NCBI GenBank assembly: GCA_021775995.1
Contig: JAJFGS010000013.1
Coordinates: forward strand, 868,001 to 932,000
Direction of reading: 5' to 3'
DNA: 64,000 bases
From: Alphaproteobacteria bacterium
GTDB taxonomy: Bacteria; Pseudomonadota; Alphaproteobacteria; Micavibrionales; Micavibrionaceae
The notes beneath the pieces were generated by a model. The model searched no databases and had not been told where the DNA came from. It was given only the letters and a program-made list of their open reading frames with translations. The number at the start of each line of letters is the position of its first letter. The first letter of the stretch is position 1. Shown here in pieces: positions 4,747-44,796 of this stretch. Position numbers and translations under genes: made by a program.

Positions 4747-5721
4747 ATGAAACCAATTTTATATACCAGTACAAAAAGCGCACAGCACGATACAGGCACA
4801 GGGCACCCCGAAAGCCCTGCCCGCATTCACGCTTTGGAAGAATTATTTCAAACCGCTCCTTTTAAAGATTGGCCACAAAAAACGGCGAGCGCCGCTGATC
4901 TTGATACCATCCTCCTCGCTCATGATGAAAATTATATTTTTGATCTTCAGGATAAAACACCTGACCACGGATTATTTGCTCTTGATGGTGACACAGTCCT
5001 CTCCCCTGCCTCTTACGATGCTGCGCTTCATGCAGCCGGCGCAGTTTGTAACGCAATAGATGATATCATGCGTCCTCCCGCTTGCGGGCATGACGGCACT
5101 CAAAATGCGCGAGCATTTTGTTCAATAAGACCACCGGGACATCATGCCGAACCAACGCACGCCCTCGGTTTTTGCCTGATGAATAATATTTTTATTGGTG
5201 CCCGGCATGCACAAAAAAAACATGGCATTAAAAAAATCGCTATTGTTGATTTTGATGTTCATCATGGGAATGGAACAGAAACAATGTGCCGCGCCCATAA
5301 CATCGCCCACCCAGATAAACCAATTTTTTATATTTCTACGCATGGTCATCCATTATTTCCCCATGGAATCGTAAAGGGTGGTGACCCAGCGCAAAATGAT
5401 GCGACGACGCTCAATATTCATCTGCCTGATAAATGCTCCTCTACCCAATTCCGCACACTCTATGAAAAGCAGGTTTTTCCTGCACTAGAGAACTTCGCCC
5501 CTGACCTTCTCATGCTCTCGGCGGGATTTGATGCTCATAAGGATGATCCACTAGCATCAGCCTGCCTTGAAACTGAGGATTATGGCTGGCTCACCCAGAA
5601 ATTATGCGATATCGCCGCTAAATATAGTCAAAAACGTGTCATTTCTGTTCTTGAAGGTGGCTATGATATTCCCGGCCTGACCGCCAGCGTCACTGCGCAT
5701 TTGCAGAAACTATCTCTTTAA
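4747..5721 (+). CDS. Histone deacetylase family / acetylpolyamine amidohydrolase-like protein, with an in-frame palindromic insertion
   Basis: A 324-aa zinc-dependent deacetylase of the HDAC class II / acetylpolyamine family. Active-site motifs are present: RPPGHHAEP (two His, residues 128-136), DFDVHHGNGTE (Asp and His zinc ligand and partner, 168-178) and SAGFDAHKDDPLA. The substrate is unknown; acetylated small amines are typical of bacterial members. The start ATG 4747 (GTG 4741 is possible) gives the expected N-terminus YTSTKSAQHDTGTGHPESP. In alphaproteobacteria this gene is often directly before xseB-ispA-dxs; here three Sel1 genes intervene. Odd: residues about 109-120 (RPPACGHDGTQN), coded by two hairpins at 5074-5120, look inserted in the usual run from IDDIM to AFC.IRPPGHH. 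Confidence 0.9.
   Translation: MKPILYTSTKSAQHDTGTGHPESPARIHALEELFQTAPFKDWPQKTASAADLDTILLAHDENYIFDLQDKTPDHGLFALDGDTVLSPASYDAALHAAGAVCNAIDDIMRPPACGHDGTQNARAFCSIRPPGHHAEPTHALGFCLMNNIFIGARHAQKKHGIKKIAIVDFDVHHGNGTETMCRAHNIAHPDKPIFYISTHGHPLFPHGIVKGGDPAQNDATTLNIHLPDKCSSTQFRTLYEKQVFPALENFAPDLLMLSAGFDAHKDDPLASACLETEDYGWLTQKLCDIAAKYSQKRVISVLEGGYDIPGLTASVTAHLQKLSL
5074..5120. repeat. In-frame palindromic insertion in the HDAC-family gene
   Basis: Two hairpins in 47 nt. The first is CCT (5074-5076), the 12-nt core CCCGCTTGCGGG (5077-5088) and CATGAC (5089-5094). The second is an exact 8-bp stem with a 4-nt loop, CAAAATGC-GCGA-GCATTTTG (5101-5120). The first has the same flanks as the copies in the polyprenyl synthase gene (39398) and hemW (43950), with a compensated change in the core, and it is read in the same frame as in the synthase gene (P-x-A-C-x-H-D). 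Confidence 0.75.
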
Positions 5722-6296
5722 GGTGAAGTGGGTTGTATAATAGATTTGTTCTTTTCTGCAATAATCAATGGTGAATTATAGTGTTCTACAGCAACTATAG
5801 ACACACGAACTTCATCAAGAACTTTACCTAGATCACCAAAAGAAAGGGTATAATCAAATTCTTCTGATAACATATTACCTAAATTTTTTGTTATGCCCTC
5901 GGAAATTTTTATTTTTAAATACTCAAGCCCGTCAAGTTTAAGCTCACGACCGTTTTCAATACTTAAAAATACGTCATGTGCTTTTCTAAAGTTTTGCTCA
6001 ACACCCCACCCTTCAGTATAACAAAATCCCAAATTACTTTGCGCTTTTGCACTCCCCTGCGCGGCGGATTTTTTAAACCACCCCACTGCCTTTTCAGAAT
6101 TTTGTTGAACACCCTTCCCTTCAAAATAACAAACGCCTAATAAACTTTGAGCTTCTGTCATCCCTGCCTCGGCTAATGGCAGGAGTAAGTCAGTAAGCCC
6201 GTCATAACGCCCTTCATAAAAAGCTTGCTGTGCTTGCACATATATCTCTTTCTTTGCTTGCTCACATATCTCTTTCTGATCTTCTTCTATACTCAT
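5718..6296 (-). CDS. Sel1-repeat protein (short paralogue)
   Basis: A protein of about 192 aa, last of three tandem Sel1-like genes. It has about two to three Sel1 (TPR-like) repeats, for example AQSLLGVCYFEGKGVQQNSEKAVGWFKKSAAQG broken as the usual 36-residue unit, then a non-repeat C-terminal region shared with its two neighbours (around LKLDGLEYLKIKISEG and TKNLGNMLSEEF). Sel1 repeats form alpha-solenoids for protein-protein contact. There is no signal peptide. ATG 6296 is chosen because AGGAG lies 9 nt upstream; the in-frame GTG at 6302 is too close to it. The stop shares a TTAA with the convergent HDAC-family gene. The function is unknown. Confidence 0.88.
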   Translation of the reverse strand: MSIEEDQKEICEQAKKEIYVQAQQAFYEGRYDGLTDLLLPLAEAGMTEAQSLLGVCYFEGKGVQQNSEKAVGWFKKSAAQGSAKAQSNLGFCYTEGWGVEQNFRKAHDVFLSIENGRELKLDGLEYLKIKISEGITKNLGNMLSEEFDYTLSFGDLGKVLDEVRVSIVAVEHYNSPLIIAEKNKSIIQPTSP

Positions 6297-6341
6297 TTTC
6301 ACTCACTCCTAATAGATTCTCTCTTTGTTGGAATTATCTCT

Positions 6342-7106
6342 TTAACTTTTATCAAAGTTTTCAATAGCTTTTTTTAATACACCAATCGGTATTGGACTAT
6401 TCTGTTTTAAAGCATCTATAGACTTACAAACGTCACGAAAAACTTTAGCTAGATCATGACAAACGTCAGAATTAAATACTTTCGATAACTCACTATCTAA
6501 ATTTTTTGTGAGAACCTCGGTAACTTTTATTTTTAAATGTTCAAGCCCTTCAAGTTTAAACGCATGATCGTCTTCAAAACTTAAAAATACGTCATATGCT
6601 GTTTTAAAGTTTTGTTTAACACCCTTCCCTTCAAGATAACAAAATCCTAAATTATATTGCGCGTGTGCGAATCCCTGTTCGGCGGCCTTTTCAAACCACT
6701 TAAAAGATTCTTCATGGTTTTGTTGAATACCCCTCCCTTGAGCATAACAATATCCCAAATTATATTGCGCTTCCGCAAGTCCCTGCTCAGCGGCTTTTTC
6801 AAACCAATTAAAAGCTTCATCATCATTTTGTTTAACCCCCTTCCCTTCAAGATAACAAAATGCCAAATTATGTTGCGCGGCTGCAAACCCCTGCTCGGCG
6901 GCTTTTTTATAGCAATTAAAAGATTCTTCATGGTTTTGTTGAATACCCAACCCATCAGCATAACAAACGCCTAATAAATTTTGAGCGTCTGGCATCTTTA
7001 CCTTAATTAATGGCATAAGTAATGTAAAAAACTCTTCATAACGCCCTTCAACATAAGCTTGCCTTGCTTGCCCATATATCTCTTGCTGATCTTTTGTTAT
7101 ACTCAT
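6342..7106 (-). CDS. Sel1-repeat protein (middle paralogue)
   Basis: A 254-aa cytoplasmic protein with about four Sel1 repeats at residues about 30-175. Units such as AQHNLAFCYLEGKGVKQN and AQYNLGYCYAQGRGIQQN alternate with FNWFEKAAEQGLAE. The C-terminal 75 residues (LKLEGLEHLKIKV-like region, then TKNLDSELSKVF) match the other two genes, so the set arose by duplication. The N-terminus begins MSITKDQQEIYGQARQAYVEG, close to the first paralogue. ATG 7106 has AGGA about 10 nt upstream. The gap to the next gene is about 45 nt, which fits one operon. Probably an adaptor or scaffold; no partner can be named. Confidence 0.9.
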   Translation of the reverse strand: MSITKDQQEIYGQARQAYVEGRYEEFFTLLMPLIKVKMPDAQNLLGVCYADGLGIQQNHEESFNCYKKAAEQGFAAAQHNLAFCYLEGKGVKQNDDEAFNWFEKAAEQGLAEAQYNLGYCYAQGRGIQQNHEESFKWFEKAAEQGFAHAQYNLGFCYLEGKGVKQNFKTAYDVFLSFEDDHAFKLEGLEHLKIKVTEVLTKNLDSELSKVFNSDVCHDLAKVFRDVCKSIDALKQNSPIPIGVLKKAIENFDKS

Positions 7107-7128
7107 TTCAACTCATTCCTTATAAAAT

Positions 7129-8211
7129 TTAACTAGGTTCCCTCATAACTTTTCCCTTTGCCGCAACAGTCGGCATTGTACTACCTTGTTTTAAAGCATC
7201 TATAGACACAGAAACCTCACAAAAAACTTTATCTAGACCAAGAAGAGAAGCGGTAGAATAAAATTCTTTCGAAAACTCACTATTTAAATTTTTTGTGAGA
7301 ACCTCAGAAATTTTTATTTTTAAATATTCAAGCCCTTCAAGTTTAGACTTGTAATCGTCTTGTATGCGTAAAAATAACCCATGCGCTGTTTCAAAGTCTT
7401 GTTCAACACCTTGCCCTTCAAGATAACAAATTCCTAAATTATATCGTGCGCCTTCCAATCCCTGATCGGCGGCTTTTTCAAACCACTTAAAAGCTTCTTT
7501 AGAATTTTGTTGAACACCCTGCCCTTCAGCATAACAAAATCCCAAATTATATTGTGCTTCTGCAAATCCCTGCTCAGCGGATTTTTTAAACCACTTAAAA
7601 GCTTCTTCATCACTTTGTTGAACACCCTGCCCTTTAGCATAACAAAATGCCAAATTATTTTGCGCGGCTGCAAGTCCCTGCTCGACGGATTTTTTATACC
7701 ACTTTACTGCCTCTTTATAATCTTTATCAACACCCTGCCCTCTAGCATAACAAAATGCCAAATTATTTTGCGCATTTGCAAACCCCTGTTCGGCAGAGGT
7801 TTTAAACCACTTAAAAGCTTCTTTAGAATTTTGTTGAACACCTCGTCCTTGAAAATAACAAGTTCCCACATTATTTTGCGCTTTTGCAGATCCCTGCTCA
7901 GCGGCTTTTTTAAACCACTTAAAAGCTTCTTTATCACTTGGTTGAACACCACAGCCATCGCCATAACAAAGTCCCAAATTATTTTGCGCTTCTGCAAGTC
8001 CCTGCTCAGCGGCTTTTTTAAACCACTTTACTGCCTCTTCATAATTTTTCTCAACACCCTTCCCTTGAGCATAACAAACTCCTAAATTATTTTGCGCTTC
8101 TGGCATCCCTTTCTCGGCTAATGGTATGAGTGATTCAGCAACCCCTTCATCACACTCCTGATCATAAGCTTTCTCTGCTTGCCCATAACTATCTGTTTGT
8201 TCGTAACCCAT
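7129..8211 (-). CDS. Sel1-repeat protein (long paralogue)
   Basis: A protein of about 360 aa and the first gene of the Sel1 trio. About seven Sel1 repeats fill residues about 30-285; each has the pattern AQNNLGxCYxxGxGVxxxxxEAxKWFKKAAEQG. The C-terminal region (LKIKISEVLTKNLNSEFSKEF) is shared with the two downstream paralogues. The repeats are close in DNA as well as protein, so copy number may vary by recombination. The start ATG 8211 has GAGGA 10-12 nt upstream; the in-frame GTG 8217 lies between them. No signal peptide is seen, so it is likely cytoplasmic. The long open frame on the other strand across this gene (7507-8085) is a by-product of the repeats. Confidence 0.92.
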   Translation of the reverse strand: MGYEQTDSYGQAEKAYDQECDEGVAESLIPLAEKGMPEAQNNLGVCYAQGKGVEKNYEEAVKWFKKAAEQGLAEAQNNLGLCYGDGCGVQPSDKEAFKWFKKAAEQGSAKAQNNVGTCYFQGRGVQQNSKEAFKWFKTSAEQGFANAQNNLAFCYARGQGVDKDYKEAVKWYKKSVEQGLAAAQNNLAFCYAKGQGVQQSDEEAFKWFKKSAEQGFAEAQYNLGFCYAEGQGVQQNSKEAFKWFEKAADQGLEGARYNLGICYLEGQGVEQDFETAHGLFLRIQDDYKSKLEGLEYLKIKISEVLTKNLNSEFSKEFYSTASLLGLDKVFCEVSVSIDALKQGSTMPTVAAKGKVMREPS

Positions 8212-8317
8212 TTTCACTCGTTCCTCATGCTTAAAAAACCATAATCAACCACCCTTCTTGTCTTATGTCAACAGCCTTGTCTTCTCCGCCTCCTTTATTC
8301 TTGAGAGACAGCACGTT

Positions 8318-8346
8318 TTGACATACACTGCCCTCTAATTTAATGG
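8318..8346 (+). promoter_or_regulatory. Possible sigma70 promoter for xseB-ispA-dxs
   Basis: A perfect -35 box TTGACA (8318-8323) and, 17 nt later, a weak -10 TAATGG (8341-8346). It lies just before xseB and after the divergent Sel1 genes. The -10 match is poor, so confidence is low. Confidence 0.3.
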
Positions 8347-8358
8347 GAATAACGGTAA

Positions 8359-8601
8359 ATGAGCGCACAGACTAAACCTGATGATATGAATTTTGAGCAA
8401 GCTCTCGCAGAGCTCGAAACCATCGTCACAGCCTTAGAAAGCGGCAAAGCCCCCTTAGAAGACTCAATTTCTTCTTTTGAGCGTGGCATCGCCCTTAAAA
8501 AACATTGTGAAAAAAAATTGAGCGAGGCTCAGGAAAAAATCGAGAAAATTAGTATCGGTCCAGACGGCGTTCCCACGGCCAGTGCCTTTGAAACTGAATA
8601 A
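8359..8601 (+). CDS. xseB: Exodeoxyribonuclease VII small subunit
   Basis: The 80-aa small subunit of exonuclease VII, which degrades single-stranded DNA with XseA. The family pattern is clear: NFEQALAELETIVTALESGK at residues 11-30, then LEDSISSFERGIALKKHCEKKLSEAQEKIEKI, a helical hairpin that wraps the large subunit. The length is normal. It is followed 40 nt later by ispA; xseB-ispA-dxs is a very common alphaproteobacterial order. xseA is not in the window. Confidence 0.95.
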   Translation: MSAQTKPDDMNFEQALAELETIVTALESGKAPLEDSISSFERGIALKKHCEKKLSEAQEKIEKISIGPDGVPTASAFETE

Positions 8602-8641
8602 CTAGATACGAAAATAATAAGTAAAAGAAAGACTTTATAAA

Positions 8642-9550
8642 ATGCCATCACCACGCGATGCCTCCCCTCGTCTTCAAAAGGCACTTGATGAAACTGTTGA
8701 AACGGTTGAAAAAACAATTAAGCGTCTGTTACCTGAAACAAATTTGGCAGAGCGTCATTTGTTTGATGCCATGCGTTATGGTGTTTTAACGGGCGGTAAA
8801 CGTCTGCGTCCTTTTATGGTGGTTCAGGCAGCGGCCTTATTCAATGTTGATCCTTCCCGTGCGCGTCGTACGGCGGCGGCGGTTGAATTTCTTCATTGTT
8901 ATTCTTTGATTCATGATGACTTACCCGCCATGGATGATTCTGATAAACGTCGTGGGAAAGCAACCGTTCACCGTAAATTTGATGAAGCCACGGCCATTCT
9001 TGCTGGTGATACCTTACTAACGCTTGCCTTTGAAACACTGTCTGATCGTGACACACATGCCGATCCCCATGTCCGTATTGAATTGGTACGCAAATTGGCT
9101 ATCGCCTCTGGCGGTCATGGTATGGTCGGCGGGCAAATGCTCGACCTTATTGGTGAGAAAGAAGAATTTGATCTTGGCACAATCTCACGTATGCAGCGTA
9201 TGAAAACAGGGCATCTTTTTGCCTTTTCCTGCGAAGCTGGCGCGATACTCGGCAAAGCGGATGAGCCGCATAAAAAAGCTTTGTGTAATTACGCTTATGA
9301 TCTCGGTCTGGCCTTCCAAGTCACCGACGATGTTTTAGATGTTGAAGCCGACCCGCGTGATACAGGCAAGCCTGCCAATCAAGATGAAAAAGCAGGCAAG
9401 TCAACTTTCGTTTCCACGATGGGGAAAGAGCAAGCCAAGATGCGCGCCGAGATGTTGGTTCACCAAGCCATCCGTCATCTGCATATCTTTGGCGGACGCG
9501 CTGAAATGCTCAAAGAGCTCGCCATGTATGTTCTACAACGCCGCGCTTAA
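8642..9550 (+). CDS. ispA: Farnesyl diphosphate synthase
   Basis: Joins IPP with DMAPP and then GPP to make C15 farnesyl diphosphate, the precursor of quinone side chains and undecaprenyl carrier. A 302-aa trans-prenyltransferase with both Asp-rich motifs: DDLPAMDDSDKRRG (first motif, about residues 97-110) and DDVLDVEADP (second motif, about 229-238), plus GGKRLRP for IPP binding. Codon use in the first half is notably uniform and richer in GC than the flanking accessory genes. It lies between xseB and the YciI gene, in line with dxs downstream. A second, longer-chain synthase is at 39.4 kb. Confidence 0.95.
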   Translation: MPSPRDASPRLQKALDETVETVEKTIKRLLPETNLAERHLFDAMRYGVLTGGKRLRPFMVVQAAALFNVDPSRARRTAAAVEFLHCYSLIHDDLPAMDDSDKRRGKATVHRKFDEATAILAGDTLLTLAFETLSDRDTHADPHVRIELVRKLAIASGGHGMVGGQMLDLIGEKEEFDLGTISRMQRMKTGHLFAFSCEAGAILGKADEPHKKALCNYAYDLGLAFQVTDDVLDVEADPRDTGKPANQDEKAGKSTFVSTMGKEQAKMRAEMLVHQAIRHLHIFGGRAEMLKELAMYVLQRRA

Positions 9551-9556
9551 ACCTTC

Positions 9557-9871
9557 ATGCAATTTCTTGTAATCGCCAAAGATGGAGATGATGATGAAGC
9601 GCTAAAGCGCCGTAAAGGTGCGCGCGATGATCACATTAAATATAGTGATTTCGCCGTCGAAACGGGCGAGCAGATTGTTGCCGCCGCCTTGCTGGATAAA
9701 GATGACGAAATGCGGGGTTCTGCCATGATTGTTGAATTCGACACCGTTGAAAAGCTCCAAGAGTGGCTCAAGCATGAGCCTTATATGACGGCGAATGTCT
9801 GGAAAGACATTGATGTCATCCCGTGTAAAGTCGGCCCCAGCTTCCAGCATGTTTTGAAGAAAAAAGCTTAA
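9557..9871 (+). CDS. YciI-like protein
   Basis: A 104-aa protein of the YciI / dimeric alpha-beta barrel fold. It begins with the typical strand MQFLVIAKDG, has the conserved R.ARDDHIKY helix segment (His of the family's Asp-His pair), then GSAMIVEFDTVEKLQEWLKHEPYMTANVWKDIDVIPCKVGPSF, where the EPY/VW..I pattern is characteristic. The activity of most members is unknown. It starts 6 nt after the ispA stop and is likely co-transcribed with ispA and dxs; insertion of a YciI gene inside the xseB-ispA-dxs block is not the commonest arrangement. Confidence 0.9.
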   Translation: MQFLVIAKDGDDDEALKRRKGARDDHIKYSDFAVETGEQIVAAALLDKDDEMRGSAMIVEFDTVEKLQEWLKHEPYMTANVWKDIDVIPCKVGPSFQHVLKKKA

Positions 9872-9913
9872 ATTACTTGGATTTAGGGCAAAGCCACGCT
9901 AAAACGGTGCATC

Positions 9914-11992
9914 ATGAAAGTCGCCCATAGCCAAATCGAGCCTCAAGACGCTCCCCAAAGCAAGACACCCTTGCTAGATACGGTGTATGAGCCTGCGGAT
10001 ATGCGTGGTTTCAGCGATGTTCAGCTCCGTCAATTGGCGGATGAGGTTCGTACCGCCACCATTGATGCTGTCTCTAAAACAGGTGGACATTTGGGCGCAG
10101 GACTTGGCGTGGTTGAGCTCACCACCGCCATTCACGCTGTTTTTAATACGCCCGATGATAAGCTTATCTTTGATGTTGGTCATCAATGCTACCCGCATAA
10201 AATTCTGACTCAGCGCCGTGATCGTATCGAAACCTTGCGTAAGGGCGATGGGTTATCGGGATTCACAAAACGTGCTGAGAGTGAATATGATCCTTTCGGT
10301 GCGGCGCACAGCTCCACGTCGATTTCCGCTGGACTTGGTATGGCGGTGGCACGTGACCTACAAAATGGTAACAATAATATTATCTCTGTGATTGGCGATG
10401 GCGCGATGTCGGCAGGCATGGCGTATGAAGCCCTCAATAATGCCGGCGCGCTTAAATCAAAACTGATTGTGATATTGAATGATAATAATATGAGCATCGC
10501 CCCGCCCGTCGGCGCGATGAGCCGCTATTTAACAAACCTTGTATCCTCACAGCCTTACTTGACCGCCCGTGATATGGCGAAAAGATTTACCAAACTCCTG
10601 CCTGGGCCACTCCAAAAAGTCGCCGCCCACGCTGAAGAAGCTGCGCGCGTTTCCCTTGGTGGGGGGACGATGTTTGAGGAGATGGGCTTTTACTATGTCG
10701 GCCCTGTCGATGGTCATGACATGAACGCGCTGCTCGGCATTTTGCGCAATGTCCGTGACAATATTGACGGGCCTATTCTTATTCACGCCATCACCAAAAA
10801 GGGCAAAGGCTACGCTCCCGCCGAAAATTCGAGCGATAAAATGCACGGCGTCGCAAAATTTGATGTGGTGACGGGCAATCAATTTAAACCGAAATCTTTA
10901 CGTCCCGCTTATACCAAAGTCTTCGCCAAAAGCTTGATTGAAGAAGCCCGCAAAGATGATAAAATTGTCGGCATCACCGCCGCCATGCCCGACGGCACAG
11001 GCATGGATTTGTTTGAAAAAGAATTTCCCACCCGCATGTTTGATGTCGGCATCGCCGAACAACATGCGGTGACCTTTGCCGCTGGCCTTGCGGCGGAGGG
11101 CATGAAACCTTTCTGCGCCATTTATTCCACCTTCCTGCAACGTGGCTATGACCAAGTCGTCCATGATGTCGCCATTCAAAATTTACCCGTGCGTTTTGCG
11201 ATTGACCGTGCGGGACTGGTCGGCGCAGATGGTTGCACGCATGCGGGGTCGTTTGATATCGCTTATCTCGGTTGCTTGCCGAACTTTGTTCTCATGGCGG
11301 CCTCGGATGAGCTTGAACTGAAAAACATGGTCGCCACCGCCGCCGCTTATGATGATGGGCCGATTGCTTTTAGATACCCACGTGGCGAAGGCACAGGTAT
11401 TGACATGGATGTCCCCGCTGAAATTCTCCCTATAGGAAAAGGCAGGATTGTTTATAAAACGCCTCAGGACGGCAAGCCGTCTACGGCGGAACACAACAAA
11501 GACCAACAAGACCCTGTCATCCCCACTTCTCTGTCATCCCCGCCCAACACTGTCATCCCCACTTCCCAACCTGTCATCCCCGCGCAGGCGGGGATCCGGA
11601 TACCCGCACAAGGCGGGTATGACGTCAGTGGTGATATCGCCCTACTCTCGTATGGTACTAGACTAGAAGAATGTAAATTAGCCACCGAGATGCTAGAAAC
11701 CAAAGGCATGACTGTCACCATCATGGATGCTCGCTTTGCCAAGCCCCTTGATAAAGCACTGATTAAATCTCTCGCGCAAAACCATGAGACTTTGGTAACG
11801 ATAGAGGAAGGCACCGTCGGCGGTTTCGGCTCTTACGTGCTGGATTATCTGAATGAAGAAAATTTACTGGGTGACAATTGTCGTCTGCATAATATGACCC
11901 TGCCCGATATTTTCCAAGACCAAGATGCCCCACAAAAACAATATGAACAAGCGTCCCTCACGGCGAAGGATATCGTTAAAAGAGTTATTTAA
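9914..11992 (+). CDS. dxs: 1-deoxy-D-xylulose-5-phosphate synthase, with an in-frame repeat insertion
   Basis: The first enzyme of the MEP pathway; makes DXP from pyruvate and glyceraldehyde 3-phosphate using thiamine diphosphate. Domain I (about residues 30-320) has the ThDP motif [18 protein letters not shown] and [12 protein letters not shown]. Domain II (about 330-500) has the catalytic-type Glu in [15 protein letters not shown] and the [18 protein letters not shown] region. Domain III is about 573-692. The protein is 692 aa, some 50 longer than usual. The excess is residues about 515-572, a low-complexity stretch with VIPTS and VIPAQAG peptides translated from palindromic repeats (11461-11625). 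It lies in the linker between domains II and III, where it should be tolerated. The frame is intact, so the enzyme is probably functional. Confidence 0.96.
11461..11625. repeat. Compound palindromic insertion inside dxs
   Basis: It opens with a 27-bp element: GCCTCAGG (11461-11468), the 12-nt self-complementary core ACGGCAAGCCGT, and CTACGGC (11481-11487); the same flanks at the same spacing occur in aroC. Then four CTGTCATCCCC units (about 11514, 11531, 11549 and 11571) lead into a 54-bp two-hairpin repeat at 11570-11623. The total adds about 55 codons without breaking the dxs frame. Confidence 0.85.
11570..11623. repeat. 54-bp two-hairpin repeat, copy 1
   Basis: Hairpin 1 is CCCCGC-GCAG-GCGGGG. 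Hairpin 2 is ATACCCGC-ACAAG-GCGGGTAT. It matches the copy at 14096-14149 at 51 of 54 positions; two of the three differences are a compensated pair in the second stem (ATACCC/GGGTAT against ATGCCC/GGGCAT). Translated here as part of dxs ([17 protein letters not shown]). Confidence 0.9.
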
Positions 11993-11995
11993 AAC

Positions 11996-13114: not shown

Positions 13115-13125
13115 TTTTCTTCAAA

Positions 13126-13197
13126 TTTGTATAAAGTTTATATATCAAAAAACTATTTGTATAAAGTAACACCCCCTTTCACTTTATACAAATAGTT
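13126..13197. promoter_or_regulatory. Operator-like repeats upstream of the Fic gene
   Basis: TTTGTATAAAGT occurs at 13126-13137, again inside a 17-mer AACTATTTGTATAAAGT at 13151-13167, and the exact reverse complement of the 17-mer is at 13181-13197, with 13 nt between the two arms. Such exact 17-bp symmetry next to a gene ending in a winged helix suggests a repressor site. As TATA-like boxes also occur within it, binding would block the Fic promoter and perhaps the divergent one. Confidence 0.7.
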
Positions 13198-13226
13198 TAG
13201 TATTAAACACACTATACACAAAACCC

Positions 13227-13255
13227 TTGACTTTAGAGGAATTTAATCCTATATT
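13227..13255 (+). promoter_or_regulatory. Sigma70-type promoter placing +1 at the start codon
   Basis: -35 TTGACT (13227-13232), a 17-nt spacer and -10 TATATT (13250-13255). The expected start of transcription, 6-7 nt downstream, falls on the ATG at 13262. No ribosome-binding site is visible before that ATG, so the transcript may be leaderless. Confidence 0.6.
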
Positions 13256-13840: not shown

Positions 13841-14179
13841 ATGGCTGGTAAATCAAGGTCTTGGACTCCCGAAAGACGGGCGGCGCAGGCGGAAAGAATG
13901 CGAACGCAAAAGCCTTGGTTGAAAACCACAGGGCCGAAAACCGATGCGGGCAAGCAACGTGTCGCCAAAAATTCTCAGACTCATGGACGGCGCAGTGCGG
14001 AATTTATGCAGCAGGTCAAAATCTTGCGCACGCTTTTGCGCACACAACGGGCGCAGTTAAAAAACCTCTCCCCTGTCATCCCCAAAATACTTCCCCCTGT
14101 CATCCCCGCGCAGGCGGGGATCCGGATGCCCGCACAAGACGGGCATGACAACAACAAAAATAGAAAGTTATCGCAGTGA
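13841..14179 (+). CDS. Unknown small basic protein with TGPKT...GK...HGRRS motif; tail made of a repeat
   Basis: 112 aa. Residues about 1-75 are very basic: a helical start SWTPERRAAQAERMRTQKPW, then TGPKTDAGKQRVAKNSQTHGRRS, a motif found in many short alphaproteobacterial proteins of unknown role, often written TGPRTPEGKARSSQNALKHG. It may bind nucleic acid, by charge. The last ~35 residues (from SPVIP) are translated from two CTGTCATCCCC units and a 54-bp palindromic repeat, so the native end of the protein has been replaced or extended. The ATG directly follows the stop of the previous gene. The end overlaps the convergent sppA stop by 12 nt. Confidence 0.7.
   Translation: MAGKSRSWTPERRAAQAERMRTQKPWLKTTGPKTDAGKQRVAKNSQTHGRRSAEFMQQVKILRTLLRTQRAQLKNLSPVIPKILPPVIPAQAGIRMPAQDGHDNNKNRKLSQ
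14096..14149. repeat. 54-bp two-hairpin repeat, copy 2
   Basis: The same repeat as at 11570-11623 (51 of 54 identical), again inside a coding frame and in the same reading frame ([17 protein letters not shown]). Hairpins are CCCCGC-GCAG-GCGGGG and ATGCCCG...CGGGCAT. A half unit CTGTCATCCCC also lies just upstream (about 14072). Confidence 0.9.
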
Positions 14180-16033: not shown

Positions 16034-17167
16034 TCAAAGACATTGTGCTTTGTGACGCAAATAATGATCGGCTAAAACACAAGCCATCATCGCTTCACAG
16101 ACAGGCGTACCTCGCAAACCAACACACGGATCATGACGACCTTTGGTAACAATATCAGTTTCTGCGCCAGATTTATCAATTGTTTTTACCGGCGTTAAAA
16201 TTGAACTGGTTGGTTTAAAGGCCACACGCACAACGACATCTTGCCCTGAAGAAATTCCACCAAGAATACCGCCCGCATTATTCGATTGGAAACCCTCTTT
16301 GCGGATTTCATCAGCATTTTCTTCACCGCCCAACTCAACGGCGTCAAAGCCTGCACCAATTTCAACAGCCTTGGTTGCATTGATAGACATCATCGCCTTG
16401 GCAAGATCAGCGTCCAACTTATCATAAACTGGTGCGCCCAAACCTGCGGGAATGCCGCTCGCATGCACTTCAACAACCGCACCAGCACTCGAACCTTTTT
16501 TACGTTGCCCGTCTAAATATGCTTCCCAAGTTTTTGCGGCTTCGACATCAGGACACCAAAACGGATTTTGTTCCACCTGATCCCAATCAAAATTATCACG
16601 GTTAATTTTATGTGGGCCTACCTGAACAACACATCCTTTTATTGAAAACGCTGAGGCGTTTTCATTTTGCCTCAGGCGCGCAGGCGCGCTACGGCCGCTC
16701 TCTTCTGAATAATATGCAGACAACTCATGTTCCAGTATTTTACGTGCCACCGCTCCCGCCGCAACACGCATTGCGGTTTCACGTGCAGATGATCTACCAC
16801 CACCGCGATAATCACGAATGCCGTATTTTTCATTGTAAGTATAATCTGCATGACCCGGACGAAATTTATCTTTGATATCGCTATAGTCTTTTGATTTCTG
16901 ATCGACATTTTCAATTAACAAACCAATCGGCGTCCCTGTCGTTTGACCTTCAAAAACACCAGACATAATTTTAACTTGGTCAGGTTCTTTACGTTGGGTG
17001 GTAAATTTACTCTGCCCTGGTTTACGACGATCCAAAAATCCTTGAATATCAGCTTCGCTCAGCTCAATACGTGGCGGCACACCATCAACGACACAACCAA
17101 TGGCTGGCCCGTGGCTTTCACCAAAGCTTTGATATTGAAACAAGGTTCCGAAACGATTACCTGACAT
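16034..17167 (-). CDS. aroC: Chorismate synthase, with an in-frame palindromic insertion
   Basis: The last step of the shikimate pathway: EPSP to chorismate, FMN-dependent. Signatures are present: [17 protein letters not shown] near the N-terminus, [34 protein letters not shown], and [24 protein letters not shown]. 377 aa, some 15-25 longer than usual. The excess is residues about 150-175 ([20 protein letters not shown] and on), coded by hairpins at 16644-16695 and placed between helix [10 protein letters not shown]-like sequence and the conserved strand [13 protein letters not shown]. The ATG overlaps the stop of the 97-aa gene (TAATG), so translation is coupled. The frame is open, so function is likely kept. 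Confidence 0.96.
16644..16695. repeat. In-frame palindromic insertion in aroC
   Basis: On the + strand: an exact hairpin GAAAACGC-TGAG-GCGTTTTC (16644-16663), then 5 nt, then GCCTCAGG (16669-16676), the 12-nt core CGCGCAGGCGCG and CTACGGC (16689-16695). The second part has the same flanks and spacing as the element at 11461-11487 in dxs, with a different self-complementary core. Confidence 0.8.
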
Positions 17168-38046: not shown

Positions 38047-38124
38047 GATAAGGCCCTTTTACACTTGTGAATCCTGATTACCTTTAAATTTAGCCATTTT
38101 TGGTCAAAAATCCAGAAGAAAAAA

Positions 38125-39341: not shown

Positions 39342-39361
39342 ATCCCTATTAAACCATTGTT

Positions 39362-40405
39362 ATGGTCGCATTACAGCATAAAAATGAAAATAATAGTCCT
39401 CGCGCTTGCGCGCATGACAAACCAAGCTCAAATCCTCTTGATATTTTACAAGAGCAGATGCATGACGACATGACGGCTGTCAACGCTATGATCATTCAAC
39501 ACATGCAATCTGATGTGCCACTTATCCCTCAATTGGCCAGTTATTTAATTGCCGCAGGGGGAAAACGTATCCGACCGCTCCTTACTCTTTCTTGTACAGC
39601 TTTATTTAATGGTGACATGGTACGCGCCCATCGTTTAGCAACGGCCGTTGAGTTTATTCACACTGCTACCCTTCTTCATGATGATGTTGTTGATGACAGT
39701 GACCAACGTCGTGGAAAAGAATCAGCCAATATTGTATTTGGTAACGAAGCCAGTGTCTTGGTCGGAGATTTTTTATTCTCCCGCGCGTTTCAACTCATGG
39801 TCGCCGATGGTTCACTCGACGTCCTTCGTATTCTTTCTAATGCTTCTGCTATCATTGCCGAAGGCGAAGTCATGCAACTGTCAGCGCAAAATAATTTAGA
39901 AACAACAATAGAAGATTATTTTTCTGTAATAGAAGGAAAAACAGCTTCCCTCTTTGCTGCGGCTTGCGAAGTTGGCCCTATCATTGGCGATCAAGATAAA
40001 GATACTGTTCAATCCTTGCGTGATTACGGCCACAACCTTGGTATGGCCTTCCAAATTATTGACGATGTTCTGGATTATAAAGCTGATCGTGCCAAGCTTG
40101 GTAAAAATGTTGGTGATGACTTCCAAGAAGGCAAAATGACTGCACCCGTTATTCTGGCTCTTCAAAAATCTAATGAAGAAGAAAAACAGTTTTGGCAACG
40201 CACCCTTGGCGATAAAAACCAAAAAGACGGTGATTTAGAAACAGCACAAAGCCTGCTTTCAAAACATGGCACTCTTGCTCAGAGTATGAAACTTGCCCAT
40301 AGCTATGGCAATAAAGCTATTCAAAACTTAACGCCTTTGCCCGACAGCAATCTAAAGCAAACATTAATTGATCTTATATCTTTCACAATCAACCGAGAGC
40401 ATTAA
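39362..40405 (+). CDS. ispB: Long-chain polyprenyl diphosphate synthase (octa/decaprenyl type)
   Basis: 347 aa. Makes the long side chain of ubiquinone from FPP and IPP. GGKRIRPLLTL, then HDDVVDDSDQRRGKESAN (first Asp-rich motif, about residues 102-119) and IIDDVLDYKADRAKLGKN (second motif) are present. Product length cannot be told by eye; octaprenyl or decaprenyl is usual. Odd: residues about 12-21 (SPRACAHDKP) come from the palindromic element at 39398-39418, placed before the conserved start NPLDILQEQMHDDMTAVNAMI. If the true start were ATG 39461 the element would be upstream, but the conserved NPLDIL text argues against that. Confidence 0.92.
   Translation: MVALQHKNENNSPRACAHDKPSSNPLDILQEQMHDDMTAVNAMIIQHMQSDVPLIPQLASYLIAAGGKRIRPLLTLSCTALFNGDMVRAHRLATAVEFIHTATLLHDDVVDDSDQRRGKESANIVFGNEASVLVGDFLFSRAFQLMVADGSLDVLRILSNASAIIAEGEVMQLSAQNNLETTIEDYFSVIEGKTASLFAAACEVGPIIGDQDKDTVQSLRDYGHNLGMAFQIIDDVLDYKADRAKLGKNVGDDFQEGKMTAPVILALQKSNEEEKQFWQRTLGDKNQKDGDLETAQSLLSKHGTLAQSMKLAHSYGNKAIQNLTPLPDSNLKQTLIDLISFTINREH
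39398..39418. repeat. Family-A palindromic element in polyprenyl synthase gene
   Basis: CCT, the 12-nt core CGCGCTTGCGCG (39401-39412) and CATGAC. The first 20 nt are identical to 43950-43969 in hemW, and the flanks match 5074-5094 in the HDAC-family gene, where the core is CCCGCTTGCGGG (a compensated pair of changes). Read here as P-R-A-C-A-H-D, the same frame as in the HDAC-family gene. Confidence 0.85.
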
Positions 40406-40423
40406 ATAAAGAACTATTAAAAG

Positions 40424-40810
40424 TTAATTTCTGACCGCACCCTTACAAGGAAATACTTCGAACAACGCCAGACTTACCGCAGGAGCGGCAATAAATTGAT
40501 CATGATAAGAATTAGCTTCCAAGTATTTCCAAACGATATCCTGCAAATCATTTAATTTAACATTAGCAGGCACACACAAATCTATGTTGGGCGATGTTCC
40601 TAATGAACTTAACAAATTATGATAGTCAACCAAGCCTGCAATATATGATTGGCACGCAATATGGGCGCCTTTAACCAGCTCTCTTCCATCACTATCGCGC
40701 TTACAAAGCTCTAATAAATAGGCTCCAGAAATAAGAGCCCCTGTTTCCTGCGCTTTTGCAGAAAACGGCAGAACTGCCATTACAATGATAAGAAGGATTT
40801 TAAAACGCAT
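40424..40810 (-). CDS. Rap1a/Tai-like secreted protein
   Basis: 128 aa with a signal peptide (MRFKILLIIVMAVLPFSAKA). The mature part fits the Rap1a/Tai pattern: a first Cys in YLLELCKRD, then ACQSYIAGLVDYHN (C-x-x-Y-I-x-G), LCVPANVKLNDLQDIVWKYLEAN, and a C-terminal FEVFPC. The family is named after periplasmic immunity proteins of type VI secretion, but most members stand alone with unknown function, as here: no toxin or T6SS gene is nearby. It ends close to the polyprenyl synthase gene (convergent) and lies 15 nt after the helicase-C-terminal-like gene. Confidence 0.85.
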   Translation of the reverse strand: MRFKILLIIVMAVLPFSAKAQETGALISGAYLLELCKRDSDGRELVKGAHIACQSYIAGLVDYHNLLSSLGTSPNIDLCVPANVKLNDLQDIVWKYLEANSYHDQFIAAPAVSLALFEVFPCKGAVRN

Positions 40811-40825
40811 TATATATTCTACTTA

Positions 40826-42007
40826 TTAATCTTTTTTACCAGTTTTTAACTGCTGTAAGATTGCAAATGGAGAGTCTTCAGGCTTACTTTCCGCTTCGGC
40901 CGTATAGACATGTTGACGTGGTGGCGGCTTCTTTCCAGATTTTTTATGGTCTGGTTTGAATTTCTTCTTATCGGATTTAAAATCCATATTAGAAAATTTC
41001 TTATTTTTAGATTCTTTTCTGCTGCTATCACCACTTGCTTGCGCCCCACCAATGGCCTTACCTTTTTTCAAAGCAAATGTTGCGAGTGCGGGCTTTTCTT
41101 GCGGTTTGGCTTCTTCAGCTTTCACTTCTTCCGTAACAGCACCCTCTACGACAGGTTTAGGATTTTCAGGAACGGCTTCTTCAACCTTAACGTCATCCGC
41201 TTTAACTTCTTCAACCTCAACTGCAACTTCATCTGCAGGGTCATGAATTTTTTTATGCCCCATCGCTTCCAACACGGCATATAAATCAACAATATTACTC
41301 CCCAACCACTCTGCCATTTGATGTTGTGCCATAAACTTTCCATCTTTTGCTGTGTCATAGACGGCGCAAATAACACGATCCAACATATCAACACGAATTG
41401 AGCGAGGGCCATAAATTGGATAACCAACCGATTGATAATATTCATTATCAAGCTCTTTACCCTCAACAGAAAAAGAAACGATGCCATCGGCTGGCACTTC
41501 GGCTGGCAAATCTTTATCCTGCCAAAGGCTCAACAACAATCCACGCAATCTTACTGCTGCAGGCTTATTTAACTCAGGCAGATAAACCAACAACGGTCCA
41601 AAACGAATTTTTTTTGTTCGCAATGCATTTCGTTTGTCTTCATCCATTTGTGCAATTAAACTTTGTAATTGTTCACGTGGAATAACCCCCAGCGCTTCAT
41701 ATATTTTTGTTGCAATGTCGCGTGGCGCACCTTCAGGAATATCGTCTTCTTTTAGTTTAAATAGAGGCTCTAATGCAACGGCAACATATCGCCCCAACCA
41801 TTCAGAAATGAATTTAAGCACCGCTTCTTTGTCTTCACTCTCAAGGACAGGGCTATCCACCAAAGAACAGGTTGGACTTAAAACGGCATCGCCTTTTTTA
41901 ATTTCAGCGACAACTTCACCAGGCACCGGATTGGTAAGGTCTTTTTGCCACGTAATTTGCCCATTTTCGGCTAGAACAAGCTGTTTATCCAGAGAATTTA
42001 AAATCAT
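40826..42007 (-). CDS. Protein resembling the C-terminal part of the alphaproteobacterial SUV3-like helicase
   Basis: 393 aa without any helicase motif. Residues about 30-235 resemble the region after the helicase core in the large (about 900-1000 aa) alphaproteobacterial SUV3/MgpS-like helicases: SEWLGRYVAVALEPLF, RFGPLLVYLPELNKPAAVRLRGLLLSLW and DGIVSFSV. The rest is a Glu/Val/Lys repeat linker (VEEVKADDVKVEEAV...) and a very basic tail (GDSSRKESKNKKFSNMDFKS, then PPRQHVY), suited to binding RNA. So either a split helicase or a stand-alone accessory domain; no helicase core is adjacent in the window (upstream is a divergent secreted-protein gene). The family link is by eye. Confidence 0.55.
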   Translation of the reverse strand: MILNSLDKQLVLAENGQITWQKDLTNPVPGEVVAEIKKGDAVLSPTCSLVDSPVLESEDKEAVLKFISEWLGRYVAVALEPLFKLKEDDIPEGAPRDIATKIYEALGVIPREQLQSLIAQMDEDKRNALRTKKIRFGPLLVYLPELNKPAAVRLRGLLLSLWQDKDLPAEVPADGIVSFSVEGKELDNEYYQSVGYPIYGPRSIRVDMLDRVICAVYDTAKDGKFMAQHQMAEWLGSNIVDLYAVLEAMGHKKIHDPADEVAVEVEEVKADDVKVEEAVPENPKPVVEGAVTEEVKAEEAKPQEKPALATFALKKGKAIGGAQASGDSSRKESKNKKFSNMDFKSDKKKFKPDHKKSGKKPPPRQHVYTAEAESKPEDSPFAILQQLKTGKKD

Positions 42008-42129
42008 ATCATTTACTTACCCGAACTTGGCGGATTGATAAAGGAAAATAAACAAAAAACAGGCTTTTGATAGACCAATAAAATTGCTAGGATATGGCAA
42101 TCTTAACAAATAGCAGTAAGTTCACATTC

Positions 42130-43596
42130 ATGACATTCAAATTCGTCCAAATTTTTACCATTTCTTGCCTAACTCTCTTAATAAGCGTTTTTCCCACTTA
42201 TGCTGTGGAAATTAATGATGCTGGGGCAAAAGATCTTAAAACAATGCTGTCAACACACATAGAAAATTATAAAAAATCCATTCAGAATTCTGGTGGAGAT
42301 TTGAAACCTGAAGGGGAAATTACAATTGAACAGGGTAATGGTTATTATGCAGCGACCCTTCCCGCCACAACTTATCAAACAGCTGCAGGGGAAAATATTA
42401 AAATTGGTTTGATAGCCATGAATGCTATTCCCACGGATAATCCTAACGATTGGAAAATATCAATGGCCATCCCTACGCCCATTCTTATCGTTGATGAAAA
42501 CGATACAACAATTCGGCGCATTGATATCGGCGAACAAAACATGGGTGGGCTTTGGTCTAAAAAATTAGAAGGATTTTCAAAACTTAAAGCTCACTATAAT
42601 GATATAAAATTCACAAATATAGAAAAAGGGGGATTTTTTAATATTGATAAAGTCTCTCTTAACAGTGATTTAGAAGAGAAAAAAGAAGGCTTATGGAGCG
42701 GACCTACGAATTTTATCTTATCCAATTTTTCTGCTGTAAAACCTAATGCAGAGCAAGCATTTGCTTTAAAAGAAATCAGTGCTGTCATCGATATTGATGA
42801 CTATGCCCACCATGAAATAAAGAAGGCCAAAGAAAAAATTCAAAAAATGAGCAAAACCGAAGAGAAAAAAGATATAGGCGGTCATCTTTTTAACATCCTC
42901 GGATCAATGGGAGATTTTTCAGCTCAATTCAACCTTAAAAATCTGGAGATAAACAGCCAAACAGAAAGTAATAATCTAAAAGCGATAGACCTTATTCAAT
43001 TTGGTTATAGTTCTGCCACCCCCAAGGACAACAACATTAACCAAAGTTTTAATATTGGCTATAGTGGACTCCAATTTAAAGATCAAGCAGAAGACCTTGC
43101 CTTAATACCAAGACAATTTAAAACATCTCTTTCTCTTGAAAATTTTCCTCTCCTTGAGGTTGTGCAGTTTGCAGAAGAAGCCATTGGTTCAAACAAAGAT
43201 AGCTCTGCAAAGCAAGTTGCCGCAACAAAAGCAATAAACTTTCTACCACAAAAATTAAAAGAAGCAGGAACAGTTTTATTGCTAAAGAACACCAGTTTTG
43301 GAAACCCCCTCTATGATGTTGATATTAATGGGGAACTGAAAGCTGAAGCGTCTTCAAAAATTGGCGGCACAGGATTTCTAAATATTGAAACAAAAGGTAT
43401 AGACGCCGTCATGAAAGAATTACAAGGCACCGAAAAAGGAGCTAAATACGCCCAACAATTAACTATGTTTAGAATGATAAGTGATGAAAAAGGCGATAAA
43501 AATGTTGCTCGTATAAGATTAAACGAAGCTGGCAATGTCACCGTTAATGATAAAGATGTGAGCGCTCTTATGGGCGGTGATGCACCAGCGCAATAA
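42130..43596 (+). CDS. Secreted/periplasmic protein, unknown
   Basis: About 488 aa from ATG 42130, which gives a clear signal peptide (MTFKFVQIFTISCLTLLISV, cut after FPTYA). An upstream in-frame ATG 42094 is possible but has AGGA too close. The mature protein is beta-rich, with charged helix (HHEIKKAKEKIQKMSKTEEK near residue 230) in the middle and a C-terminal FLNIETKGIDAVMKELQG stretch that faintly recalls large periplasmic proteins of the DUF945/DUF2125 type; not enough to call. Divergent from the helicase-like gene. It ends 4 nt before the convergent hemW stop. Confidence 0.75.
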   Translation: MTFKFVQIFTISCLTLLISVFPTYAVEINDAGAKDLKTMLSTHIENYKKSIQNSGGDLKPEGEITIEQGNGYYAATLPATTYQTAAGENIKIGLIAMNAIPTDNPNDWKISMAIPTPILIVDENDTTIRRIDIGEQNMGGLWSKKLEGFSKLKAHYNDIKFTNIEKGGFFNIDKVSLNSDLEEKKEGLWSGPTNFILSNFSAVKPNAEQAFALKEISAVIDIDDYAHHEIKKAKEKIQKMSKTEEKKDIGGHLFNILGSMGDFSAQFNLKNLEINSQTESNNLKAIDLIQFGYSSATPKDNNINQSFNIGYSGLQFKDQAEDLALIPRQFKTSLSLENFPLLEVVQFAEEAIGSNKDSSAKQVAATKAINFLPQKLKEAGTVLLLKNTSFGNPLYDVDINGELKAEASSKIGGTGFLNIETKGIDAVMKELQGTEKGAKYAQQLTMFRMISDEKGDKNVARIRLNEAGNVTVNDKDVSALMGGDAPAQ

Positions 43597-43599
43597 ACC

Positions 43600-44796
43600 C
43601 TACAATAAATAAGACAGCAAACCATTCAAACGTTGCATTCCATTTTGCGTTGGCATGATGTGTGTTTTACTTAAGGCTAATAAATTTTCATCAACCAAAT
43701 GTTGTATTTTGTCTTGCGCTAAAACCATGCGCCAATCTTGACCAGTTTCATCTTCAATATTTTTTAATGCTACACCATCACGAAGTCGCAACCCCATCAT
43801 CATCATTTCAGTTAATCGCTCTTGCGCCCCAACTTCTTCAAACGGATGATATCCATGTCCCTCTTTAGATACCTTATCAAGCCAAATATCAGGCGCACGA
43901 TGCGTCCGTGTGGCATATTTATAAGAACTTGCTGGTGATGAAGCAGCCTCCTCGCGCTTGCGCGCATGAGGGCTTTTAAATGTCAACCTTCCATGCGCTC
44001 CGGGGCCTATTCCTGCATAATCCCCATAACGCCAGTAAGTCATATTATGTGTGGACTCTTGCCCTTTTGCTGCGTGGTTTGAAATTTCATAGGCAGGCAA
44101 TCCAGCCTGCCCCAAAACATCTTGTGTCACTTCATAAAATTCACCCGCTTGATCTTGTTCAGGAATACGAAACTCCCCTCTCGCCGCTTGCGTATAAAAC
44201 GGTGTGCCTTGTTCAATCGTTAATTGATAAAGAGATAAATGACCTTGGGCATATTGAATAGCTTCTTTTAATTCTGCCTTCCAATCATCAATCTGTTGTT
44301 CAGGACGCGCATAAATTAAATCAAAACTATAGCGATCAAAAATTTTGGCGGCAGTTTTAATAGCCCCAACTGCCTCAATCGCTGAATGCTCACGCCCTAA
44401 AAACTTTAACTGATCATCCCTTAAAGATTGCACACCAACAGAAACACGATTAATTCCCGCCACTTTAAAATCTTGAAATTTTTGCGCCTCAATAGACGTT
44501 GGGTTAGCTTCCAGCGTGATTTCTATACCTTCTTTAACATGCCAAACTTTTGCAATATGATTTAGAATTTTTTCAACCGTATCAGGTTTCATCAATGATG
44601 GCGTGCCGCCACCAAAAAAAATTGAGGTGACCGCACGTCCTTTTGTCATGCTCGCTACATGGTCTATCTCACGCAAATAACTTTGAACCCATTTTTCATG
44701 GTCAATTGAATCGCTAACATGGGAATTAAAATCACAATACGGACACTTGGCCTTACAAAATGGCCAATGGATATAAACACCAAACAAATCAGGCAT
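43600..44796 (-). CDS. hemW: Radical SAM heme chaperone HemW, with an in-frame palindromic insertion
   Basis: 398 aa. Binds haem and a [4Fe-4S] cluster; formerly annotated as oxygen-independent coproporphyrinogen oxidase. VYIHWPFCKAKCPYCDFNSH carries the radical-SAM CxxxCxxC plus the HemW-type extra Cys-less phenotype (F after C-x-x-C), then FGGGTPSLM, EANPTSIEA, GVQSLRDDQL and YEISNHAAKG. Residues about 274-292 (KSPHARKREEAASSPASSY) come from the palindrome at 43950-43969 and look inserted between GPGAHGRLTF and YATRTHRAPDIWL. ATG 44796 gives the canonical start and overlaps rdgB by 8 nt; the open frame goes up to 44832. Confidence 0.94.
   Translation of the reverse strand: MPDLFGVYIHWPFCKAKCPYCDFNSHVSDSIDHEKWVQSYLREIDHVASMTKGRAVTSIFFGGGTPSLMKPDTVEKILNHIAKVWHVKEGIEITLEANPTSIEAQKFQDFKVAGINRVSVGVQSLRDDQLKFLGREHSAIEAVGAIKTAAKIFDRYSFDLIYARPEQQIDDWKAELKEAIQYAQGHLSLYQLTIEQGTPFYTQAARGEFRIPEQDQAGEFYEVTQDVLGQAGLPAYEISNHAAKGQESTHNMTYWRYGDYAGIGPGAHGRLTFKSPHARKREEAASSPASSYKYATRTHRAPDIWLDKVSKEGHGYHPFEEVGAQERLTEMMMMGLRLRDGVALKNIEDETGQDWRMVLAQDKIQHLVDENLLALSKTHIMPTQNGMQRLNGLLSYLL
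43950..43969. repeat. Family-A palindromic element in hemW
   Basis: CCT (43950-43952), core CGCGCTTGCGCG (43953-43964), CATGA. Identical over 20 nt to 39398-39417. It lies on the non-coding strand of hemW, so it is translated in the other direction (SPHARKREE) than in the other two genes. Confidence 0.85.

Follow-up and report, generated by a model that had tools for sequence, protein, structure and literature searches.

Two families of short palindromic, REP-type repeats in one alphaproteobacterial genus, mostly intergenic and occasionally in frame within conserved enzymes

Five short palindromes lie in frame within conserved enzyme genes in a 64,000-nucleotide stretch of the genome of an alphaproteobacterium of the family Micavibrionaceae (assembly GCA_021775995.1, contig JAJFGS010000013.1, positions 868,001 to 932,000 of the forward strand; called the window hereafter). 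They belong to two families, designated A and B, of short palindromic DNA of the repetitive extragenic palindrome (REP) type, which are found almost only in a single genus of uncultured alphaproteobacteria. Ten members of this genus are referred to as G000-G009, G000 being the genome of the window. As far as could be judged, the structure of both families is new, within the known class formed by REPs and the Rickettsia palindromic elements (RPEs). We consider it likely that A and B are non-autonomous REP-type repeats that reside mostly between genes, that copies landing in frame in a gene are tolerated, and that the arms of the palindromes are kept complementary most simply by templating of one arm on the other.

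Both families consist of two nested stems separated by fixed internal loops. An A element is built of an outer stem, CT, a 5-bp inner stem, TT, the second 5-bp arm, CAT or TAT, and the closing strand of the outer stem. In B, TCAGG precedes the 5-bp inner stem, two bases form its centre, and CTAC follows the second arm before the outer stem is closed. The internal loops are asymmetric, i.e., CT opposite CAT/TAT in A and TCAGG opposite CTAC in B, and the elements of both families measure 23-30 bp. The inner stem varies in sequence with its arms remaining complementary, and 21 distinct stem sequences were counted in A and 17 in B (the latter among 67 copies). Also the outer stem changes in a complementary way, with GTC/GAC, CTC/GAG and GCC/GGC variants in A, and GCC/GGC, CGC/GCG, CCC/GGG, ATC/GAT and others in B. 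An initial annotation of the window, made from its letters only, had described the inner stem correctly and had overlooked this second, covarying one.

Pairing of the outer stem was scored in 106 A copies, picked by the fixed bases and the inner stem only from loci of eight genomes. Among their 318 outer cells, 311 are Watson-Crick pairs, and all three outer pairs are so in 99 copies; the triplets are GTC/GAC in 58 copies, CTC/GAG in 26 and GCC/GGC in 14. For B, the corresponding number is 188 out of 201 cells (67 copies). The sets for the inner stem were picked the other way round. The 625 inner cells of 125 A copies, six of which have at most two inner pairs and look like chance matches, comprise 580 Watson-Crick pairs, 14 G-U pairs and 31 other combinations, and the 315 cells of 63 B copies comprise 306, 3 and 6, respectively. 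In the alignments of both families, that of A consisting of copies picked for paired inner stems, the percentage paired, the number of two-sided changes and the covariation score were higher than in any of 500 shuffles. At least as many pairs with a two-sided change occurred in 9 shuffles for A and for B alike, and at least as many pair types in 9 shuffles for A and 35 for B. The minimum-energy DNA structure of all five window copies consists of the inner plus the outer stem. The energies are close to those of shuffled sequences (z from -2.24 to 0.18), and fold energy alone is, therefore, no evidence. A scan of the window against Rfam revealed no family reaching its gathering score.

The abundance of the motifs in the 2.0-Mb genome of G000 is far above chance. 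The pattern CCT-N12-CATGA, with seven matches in the window, of which three are the palindromic A copies, occurs 76 times in the genome, vs. 12 times for a reversed control pattern. A perfect 5-bp Watson-Crick stem was found in 28 of these 76 matches, where 0.07 were expected, and 27 of the 28 have a TT centre; from the base composition, only ~0.005 such A sites would be expected in the genome. For B, five matches with exact flanks were found in the genome, all of them palindromic, and none for the reversed control. When up to three mismatches were allowed in the flanks, there were 63 matches vs. 48 for the control, and among them further palindromic copies with outer bases exchanged pairwise. 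Thus, the five motifs, each of which reads with the position and core reported in the initial annotation, are members of genuine repeat families, as had been proposed there.

To determine their distribution, covariance models built from aligned copies (R1 for A and R2 for B) were searched against genomes. The A model matched 77 times in G000, 56 in G007, 42 in G005, 25 in G002 and 15 in G006, and had no match in the other five of the ten genus members. Outside the genus, one weak match was found in each of two of 48 genomes (E 0.041 and 0.049). Among 289 sampled genomes of the class, G000 alone matched and the other 288 did not, in a run of reduced sensitivity, with few candidates scored in each genome, that found 26 of the 77 G000 matches again. 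The B model had 2 to 107 matches in eight of the ten genus members and one weak match (E 0.0012) among 28 genomes outside the genus. In G009, neither covariance model had a match. A species tree based on four proteins (support 17 to 100, with several weak nodes) was used solely to establish that G000 and G005 are sisters (support 85).

In the sampled loci of G000, 68 copies passed the score test, three chance matches of A having been dropped by eye; also dropped before counting was one chance A match in G005, and an A pair common to G004 and G006 was left out that looks like a chance coding match. As many as 57 of the 68 copies lie outside open reading frames (ORFs) of at least 100 aa. These intergenic copies are located between tandem ORFs in 37 cases, between divergent ORFs in 17 and between convergent ORFs in three, an apportionment much like that of the intergenic bases of the window. 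The other 11 copies lie inside ORFs of at least 100 aa, i.e., the five enzyme genes of the window and six ORFs that were not shown to be interrupted genes. ORFs of this size cover ~93% of the window. Since most G000 copies are intergenic, the window, with all five copies in genes, is atypical.

The five host genes were identified with Pfam as encoding a histone-deacetylase (HDAC) family protein, Dxs, chorismate synthase (AroC), a polyprenyl synthetase, and a protein with radical SAM and HemN_C domains (HemW). The A copy of the HDAC-family gene (gene at 4585-5721, plus strand) is located at 5072-5094 on the plus strand and combines the outer stem GTC/GAC and the inner stem CCCGC/GCGGG around a TT centre with the fixed CT/CAT. 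Among seven genus members for which the gene was available, an A copy is found in G000 and in G005, where the stem is partly compensated, and is missing in G001, G003, G004, G006 and G009. In the polyprenyl synthase gene (39362-40405, plus strand), the A copy at 39396-39418 (plus strand) occupies approximately codons 12-19, and the start codon upstream of it aligns with those of the relatives. It is present in G000 only and missing in all six relatives in which this region is available (G006 was not covered). The A copy at 43948-43970 (plus strand) in hemW (43600-44832, minus strand) has the outer stem CTC/GAG and lies between the Radical_SAM and HemN_C domains; read on the opposite strand, it encodes PHARKREEA. 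It is common to G000, G002 and G007, with stems that differ in sequence, is decayed in G005, and is missing in G001, G008 and G009 (G003, G004 and G006 were not read at this site).

The two B copies are located in dxs (gene at 9914-11992, plus strand) and aroC (16034-17167, minus strand). The latter, at 16669-16695 (plus strand), has the inner stem CGCGC/GCGCG and is part of an insert of ~21-26 residues relative to empty orthologues (16652-16720, minus strand, ends approximate). A decayed homologous insert is present in G006. Of the 30 rows aligned, that of G000 included, the remaining 28 lack the insert, although one of them (L029) is a few residues longer. The copy in dxs, at 11461-11487 (plus strand), with outer stem GCC/GGC and inner stem ACGGC/GCCGT, is located in a larger insert (11456-11630, plus strand, approximately residues 515-572, ends approximate) in the linker between the second and third Pfam domains, i.e., between Transket_pyr, which ends at residue 492, and Transketolase_C, which starts at 574. 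The initial annotation reported this B copy and missed that the same insert also contains a canonical REP of the CGTC-tagged type, which begins a repeat at 11570-11623 (plus strand; TGTC tag, stem ATCCCCGC/GCGGGGAT, 4-nt loop). The linker is filled differently in other genus members: with A in G005, with a pair of CGTCATTGCGAG-like elements in G006, with two B copies in G004, and with three tandem in-frame B copies of 11 codons each in G007 (L462, G007:C142:1-1500), a repeat expansion in a conserved gene. It is short in G001, G002, G003, G008 and G009. Outside the elements, some residues are common to the filled linkers; instead of five separate hits, these linkers may therefore reflect the refilling of a longer loop of older date. 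In the dxs gene of G006, a further in-frame copy is present at a second site.

Similar insertions were found in other genes of the genus. A loop at the end of the N-terminal Pfam domain of TruB contains B in G003, G006 and G007, in the latter with an added A, and B in the other orientation in G005; the loop is filled in these four and without element in the other 25 of 29 sequences. In-frame copies are also present in Dus of G005 and G007, in a small-domain methyltransferase (two in G005 and one in G007), in 5-FTHF cyclo-ligase and DapF of G005, and in inositol monophosphatase and a PAF-acetylhydrolase-like protein of G007. The total amounts to 17 gene-by-species insertions at 11 sites, plus further G007 sites; these counts exclude the long-ORF matches in L166 and L192, for which Pfam gave no match, and the unscanned ORFs of L394 in G002. 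The inserts in Dxs, HemW and TruB sit between or beside Pfam domains. In the B copies of G004 dxs and G006 aroC, CTAC is replaced by CTAA. As judged from aligned sequences, insertion in frame in conserved enzymes is a property of both families, and the alignments of AroC, HDAC, polyprenyl synthase and Dxs agree with the earlier claim that the family consensus lacks the resulting peptides: they are missing at the same site in 28 of 30 rows for AroC, and in five of seven genus members for HDAC, six of seven for polyprenyl synthase and five of ten for Dxs. These peptides would be tolerated rather than used.

The repeats can be compared with those in the survey of Di Nocera et al. (2013; PMC3733652). 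There, REPs are sorted into GTAG- and CGTC-tagged superfamilies, with sub-families that differ by complementary stem changes and with intragenic copies in several species, including copies in truB genes. B resembles the GTAG REPs in that a short hairpin with a loop of 2 nt is directly preceded, on its 5' side, by GTAG; on the other strand, CTAC directly follows the inner stem in nine out of nine B copies of alignment A2, which were chosen by that pattern. Further similarities are the sub-families with complementary stems, the occurrence in clusters, the intragenic copies and the uneven spread among related species. With its 5-bp stem, 2-nt loop and alternative complementary stems, B also falls within the dimensions of GTAG REPs (stem 5-13 bp, loop 2-20 nt). 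However, the tag of GTAG REPs is terminal and unpaired, whereas that of B lies between two stems and is closed by the covarying outer stem. When the two window copies are folded as DNA at minimum energy, the AG of GTAG is paired as well. Two-stem REPs, or 'long hairpins', have a second stem beyond a bulge, but in these GTAG is located 5' of the whole structure (PMC6006769), unlike in B. No report of REPs with a tag enclosed by a covarying outer stem was found in a limited search of open papers that was not aimed at this feature.

The relation of A to the CGTC REPs is comparable. On the other strand, A starts with GTCATG or CTCATG, and its tag was judged to be of the CGTC type, which covers CGTC, TGTC and CCTC, by the outer triplets, the base before the triplet not being counted. 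CGTC REPs are mainly alphaproteobacterial, as is the host of A. By the criteria of PMC3733652, however, the tag of a CGTC REP is unpaired, whereas that of A pairs with GAC or GAG; the stem is 8-9 bp with leading AT pairs, whereas the inner stem of A is 5 bp and the AT of CAT is unpaired; and a 4-5-nt loop and a CCA-like tail contrast with the TT loop of A, where the 3' side pairs instead. A resembles a CGTC REP in the way it works, without being filed as one. The canonical element in dxs, TGTC-ATCCCCGC-GCAG-GCGGGGAT-CCG, with an 8-bp stem starting with AT and with CCG rather than CCA as its tail, does belong to this group, which also includes dRS3 of Neisseria besides RPE-4 and RPE-6 of Rickettsia, equated with the CGTC-4 and CGTC-1 repeats, respectively (PMC3733652).

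RPE-4, -6 and -7 have an ATGAC motif in common (PMC3767692), and the same motif ends 58 of the 106 A copies, i.e., those with outer triplets GTC/GAC. Palindromic elements of Rickettsia and Wolbachia are also similar to A and B in being inserted in frame in conserved genes whose relatives have no element. RPE-4, -6 and -7 occur at nearby but different positions of one gene among rickettsiae (PMC3767692), as do different types of elements here. On the other hand, RPEs are 100-150 bp long (PMC3767692) vs. 23-30 bp for the mostly intergenic A and B, and the comparison is one of descriptions, not of sequence homology. Thus, the comparison with RPEs that was drawn in the initial annotation is apt, but the notion that went with it, of a system aimed at genes, is contradicted by the majority of copies outside ORFs, and the idea that the lineage has its own element system is too strong, the REP class with its intragenic copies having been described in 2013 (PMC3733652). 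Tolerance of palindromic repeats in frame is already known from Rickettsia and others. In the accessible part of a 2025 survey of REPs (PMC12306157), no mention of 'intragenic' or 'in-frame' was found. The REPINs of Pseudomonas contain short palindromic repeats for which compensatory stem changes are reported, as in A and B, but REPINs are REP doublets tied to REP-associated Y1 transposases (RAYTs) (PMC3116915); no such unit of A and B was seen, in an analysis that did not cover their pairing systematically.

How the arms of the palindromes change could be followed at orthologous sites, identified by alignment of their flanks (10 for A and five for B, plus truB). There, 163 stem pairs are unchanged, 44 have changed on both sides and are still Watson-Crick pairs, 16 have changed on one side, and one otherwise. 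Four sites have many changes and may represent separate insertions; without them, the numbers are 136 unchanged, 26 two-sided and 14 one-sided. Tandem units provide a second, cleaner comparison. Between 16 adjacent pairs of units with at least 75% identity outside the stems, nine stem pairs differ on both sides and three on one side, vs. ~1.3 and 23, respectively, expected if the arms changed independently. In an array of eight 43-bp A units in G005 (L378, G005:C1:42500-47400), A-T and G-C are exchanged on both arms, and two adjacent units are identical at all 23 compared non-stem positions and differ in one base pair on both arms. Such changes fit templating from arm to arm at least as well as selection. 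The initial annotation invoked selection on hairpin structure; this conclusion does not follow, since two-sided changes also occur between near-identical tandem units and arm-to-arm template switching yields them without selection. Homogenization of the arms of inverted repeats by template switching has been documented in yeast (PMC8604942), and template switching at quasipalindromes in E. coli (PMC7202029).

Several of the intragenic inserts are adjoined by another inverted repeat, with perfectly matching arms of 6-9 bp. Next to the insert in the HDAC-family gene, it is 8 bp (CAAAATGC-gcga-GCATTTTG, 5101-5120), and its right, outer arm can also be found in the G006 orthologue that lacks the insert, which suggests that the inner arm was newly formed as an inverted copy of host sequence. 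Next to the aroC insert, it is 9 bp (TGAAAACGC-tgag-GCGTTTTCA, 16643-16664). In the 34 windows beside the 17 insertions, an inverted repeat of at least 7 bp was found five times, vs. 0.52 times expected from the same genes. As a footprint of fold-back copying, these flanking repeats are a lead.

In the explanation that we favor, A and B would accumulate mostly between genes as non-coding, non-autonomous repeats. Occasionally, a copy would land in a gene, where copies that keep the frame in a linker or loop would survive, their peptides being tolerated, not used. During replication, one arm would template the other, i.e., quasipalindromes would be corrected by template switching; a second possibility for the pairing of the arms is purifying loss of broken copies. 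New copies could arise through a trans-acting enzyme that recognizes the fixed loops and the tag, or through template switching onto hairpin DNA during replication. Several points weigh against this explanation. Templating and the copying route rest on inference, and no copying event was seen directly. Selection would explain the compensated stems just as well, and so would recombination with a copy that has a different stem type. By its design, the orthologous comparison cannot pick up decayed copies (that of hemW in G005 was not used), and at sites with three copies it counts pairs that depend on one another. Furthermore, the inverted repeats beside the inserts were noticed first and tested afterwards, and five further insertions (10 windows) had none of at least 7 bp, which brings the pooled number to five in 44 windows (P ~6e-4).

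A bolder version of the templating explanation is conceivable, to which we give tentative credence at best: A and B might represent a REP-like class that needs no transposase, in which template switching at the hairpin both rewrites the two arms and seeds new copies, short inverted copies of host DNA are left next to fresh inserts, and some enzyme loops, those of dxs, truB and dus, serve as standing ports in which one element succeeds and replaces another.

Alternatively, the hairpins could be functional sites in DNA or RNA, e.g., stabilizers of mRNA 3' ends, regulatory hairpins or protein-binding sites, with the stems kept by selection. The strong covariation, the fixed internal and terminal loops, and the fact that copies at the same place in G000, G002, G005 and G007 stay paired with altered sequence would suit such sites. 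They would be harder to reconcile with the spread of the copies, which follows that of intergenic bases (37 tandem, 17 divergent and three convergent out of 57) without the bias for 3' ends of REPs (PMC3733652), with 0 to 107 matches between congeners (drafts, some of them incomplete), and with the persistence of paired copies inside coding genes too. Moreover, frequent GT pairs are regarded as a sign of RNA function in PMC3733652, whereas G-U is rare here (14 of 625 cells in A inner stems). Functional sites are, therefore, an unlikely explanation.

Somewhat less probable still is that a RAYT mobilizes A and B as REPs through the GTAG tag. As discussed above, B does have GTAG directly 5' of its hairpin, and a search for transposases, which covered the single family Y1_Tnp (IS200-like, RAYT), revealed one Y1_Tnp protein in nine of the ten genus members, the tenth genome being 77% complete. 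The protein is 223-244 aa long and encoded by a single-copy gene, located in G000 at G000:C11:39799-40119 (L311). However, the two of the nine proteins that were scanned had scores of 41 and 43 bits, whereas the curated threshold for REP-associated transposases is 80, and the signature of the family, HuH and Y---NP (PMC6006769), is altered: all nine have QuH in place of HuH and L or M in place of the N of Y---NP, and seven have F or H in place of the Y. GTAG REPs are associated with RAYT genes in REPtrons, but no A was found in the stretches of 9-13 kb around the Y1_Tnp genes, and no clear B in 11 such stretches, where one weak partial match had an E of 0.47. Also G009, a genome without A or B matches, encodes the protein. 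These lost motifs, low scores and missing neighbors weaken the case for mobilization by the genus's own Y1_Tnp protein, no other transposase family having been searched; the protein may be a domesticated transposase.

The interpretation of the initial annotation, i.e., a dedicated system of the RPE type with a preference for insertion in coding genes, could draw on the 17 gene-by-species insertions at 11 sites with the further ones in G007, and on loops that are hit repeatedly. It is nevertheless very improbable, given that only 11 of 68 G000 copies lie in ORFs of at least 100 aa, which cover ~93% of the window, and that five of these 11 are the window enzymes and the other six were not shown to be insertions in real genes. 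Finally, an origin of the palindromes by chance or as a by-product of coding constraint can be dismissed in view of the 28 perfect stems among 76 matches vs. 0.07 expected, the non-coding majority of the copies, and the relatives without the peptides.

For the multiplication of CGTC-type REPs, no dedicated transposase was found in PMC3733652. A genus with 0 to ~100 matches per congener, with tandem arrays, and with shared sites that carry different stems lets selection be told from templating. It also adds one more lineage to the few with palindromic repeats in conserved enzymes, and truB and dxs are its recurrent targets. The linked changes of the two arms, and dxs and truB as ports that are used repeatedly, are what deserves to be followed up.

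The window contains some further repeats. The repeat beginning with the CGTC-type REP in dxs has a second copy at 14096-14149 (plus strand), in the C-terminal codons of a 112-aa ORF (13841-14179), where the REP is read in frame and followed by a short tail. Two GTCATTGCGAG-type elements are located on opposite strands at 177 and 326, and a similar pair fills the dxs linker of G006. Another palindromic family, AACCCCG(T/C)A...T(A/G)CGGGGT, has five pattern matches near the left end of the window, between 230 and 3283. At 5718-8217, three adjacent ORFs on the minus strand contain related repeats, partly in tandem arrays of 108-bp (36-residue) units.

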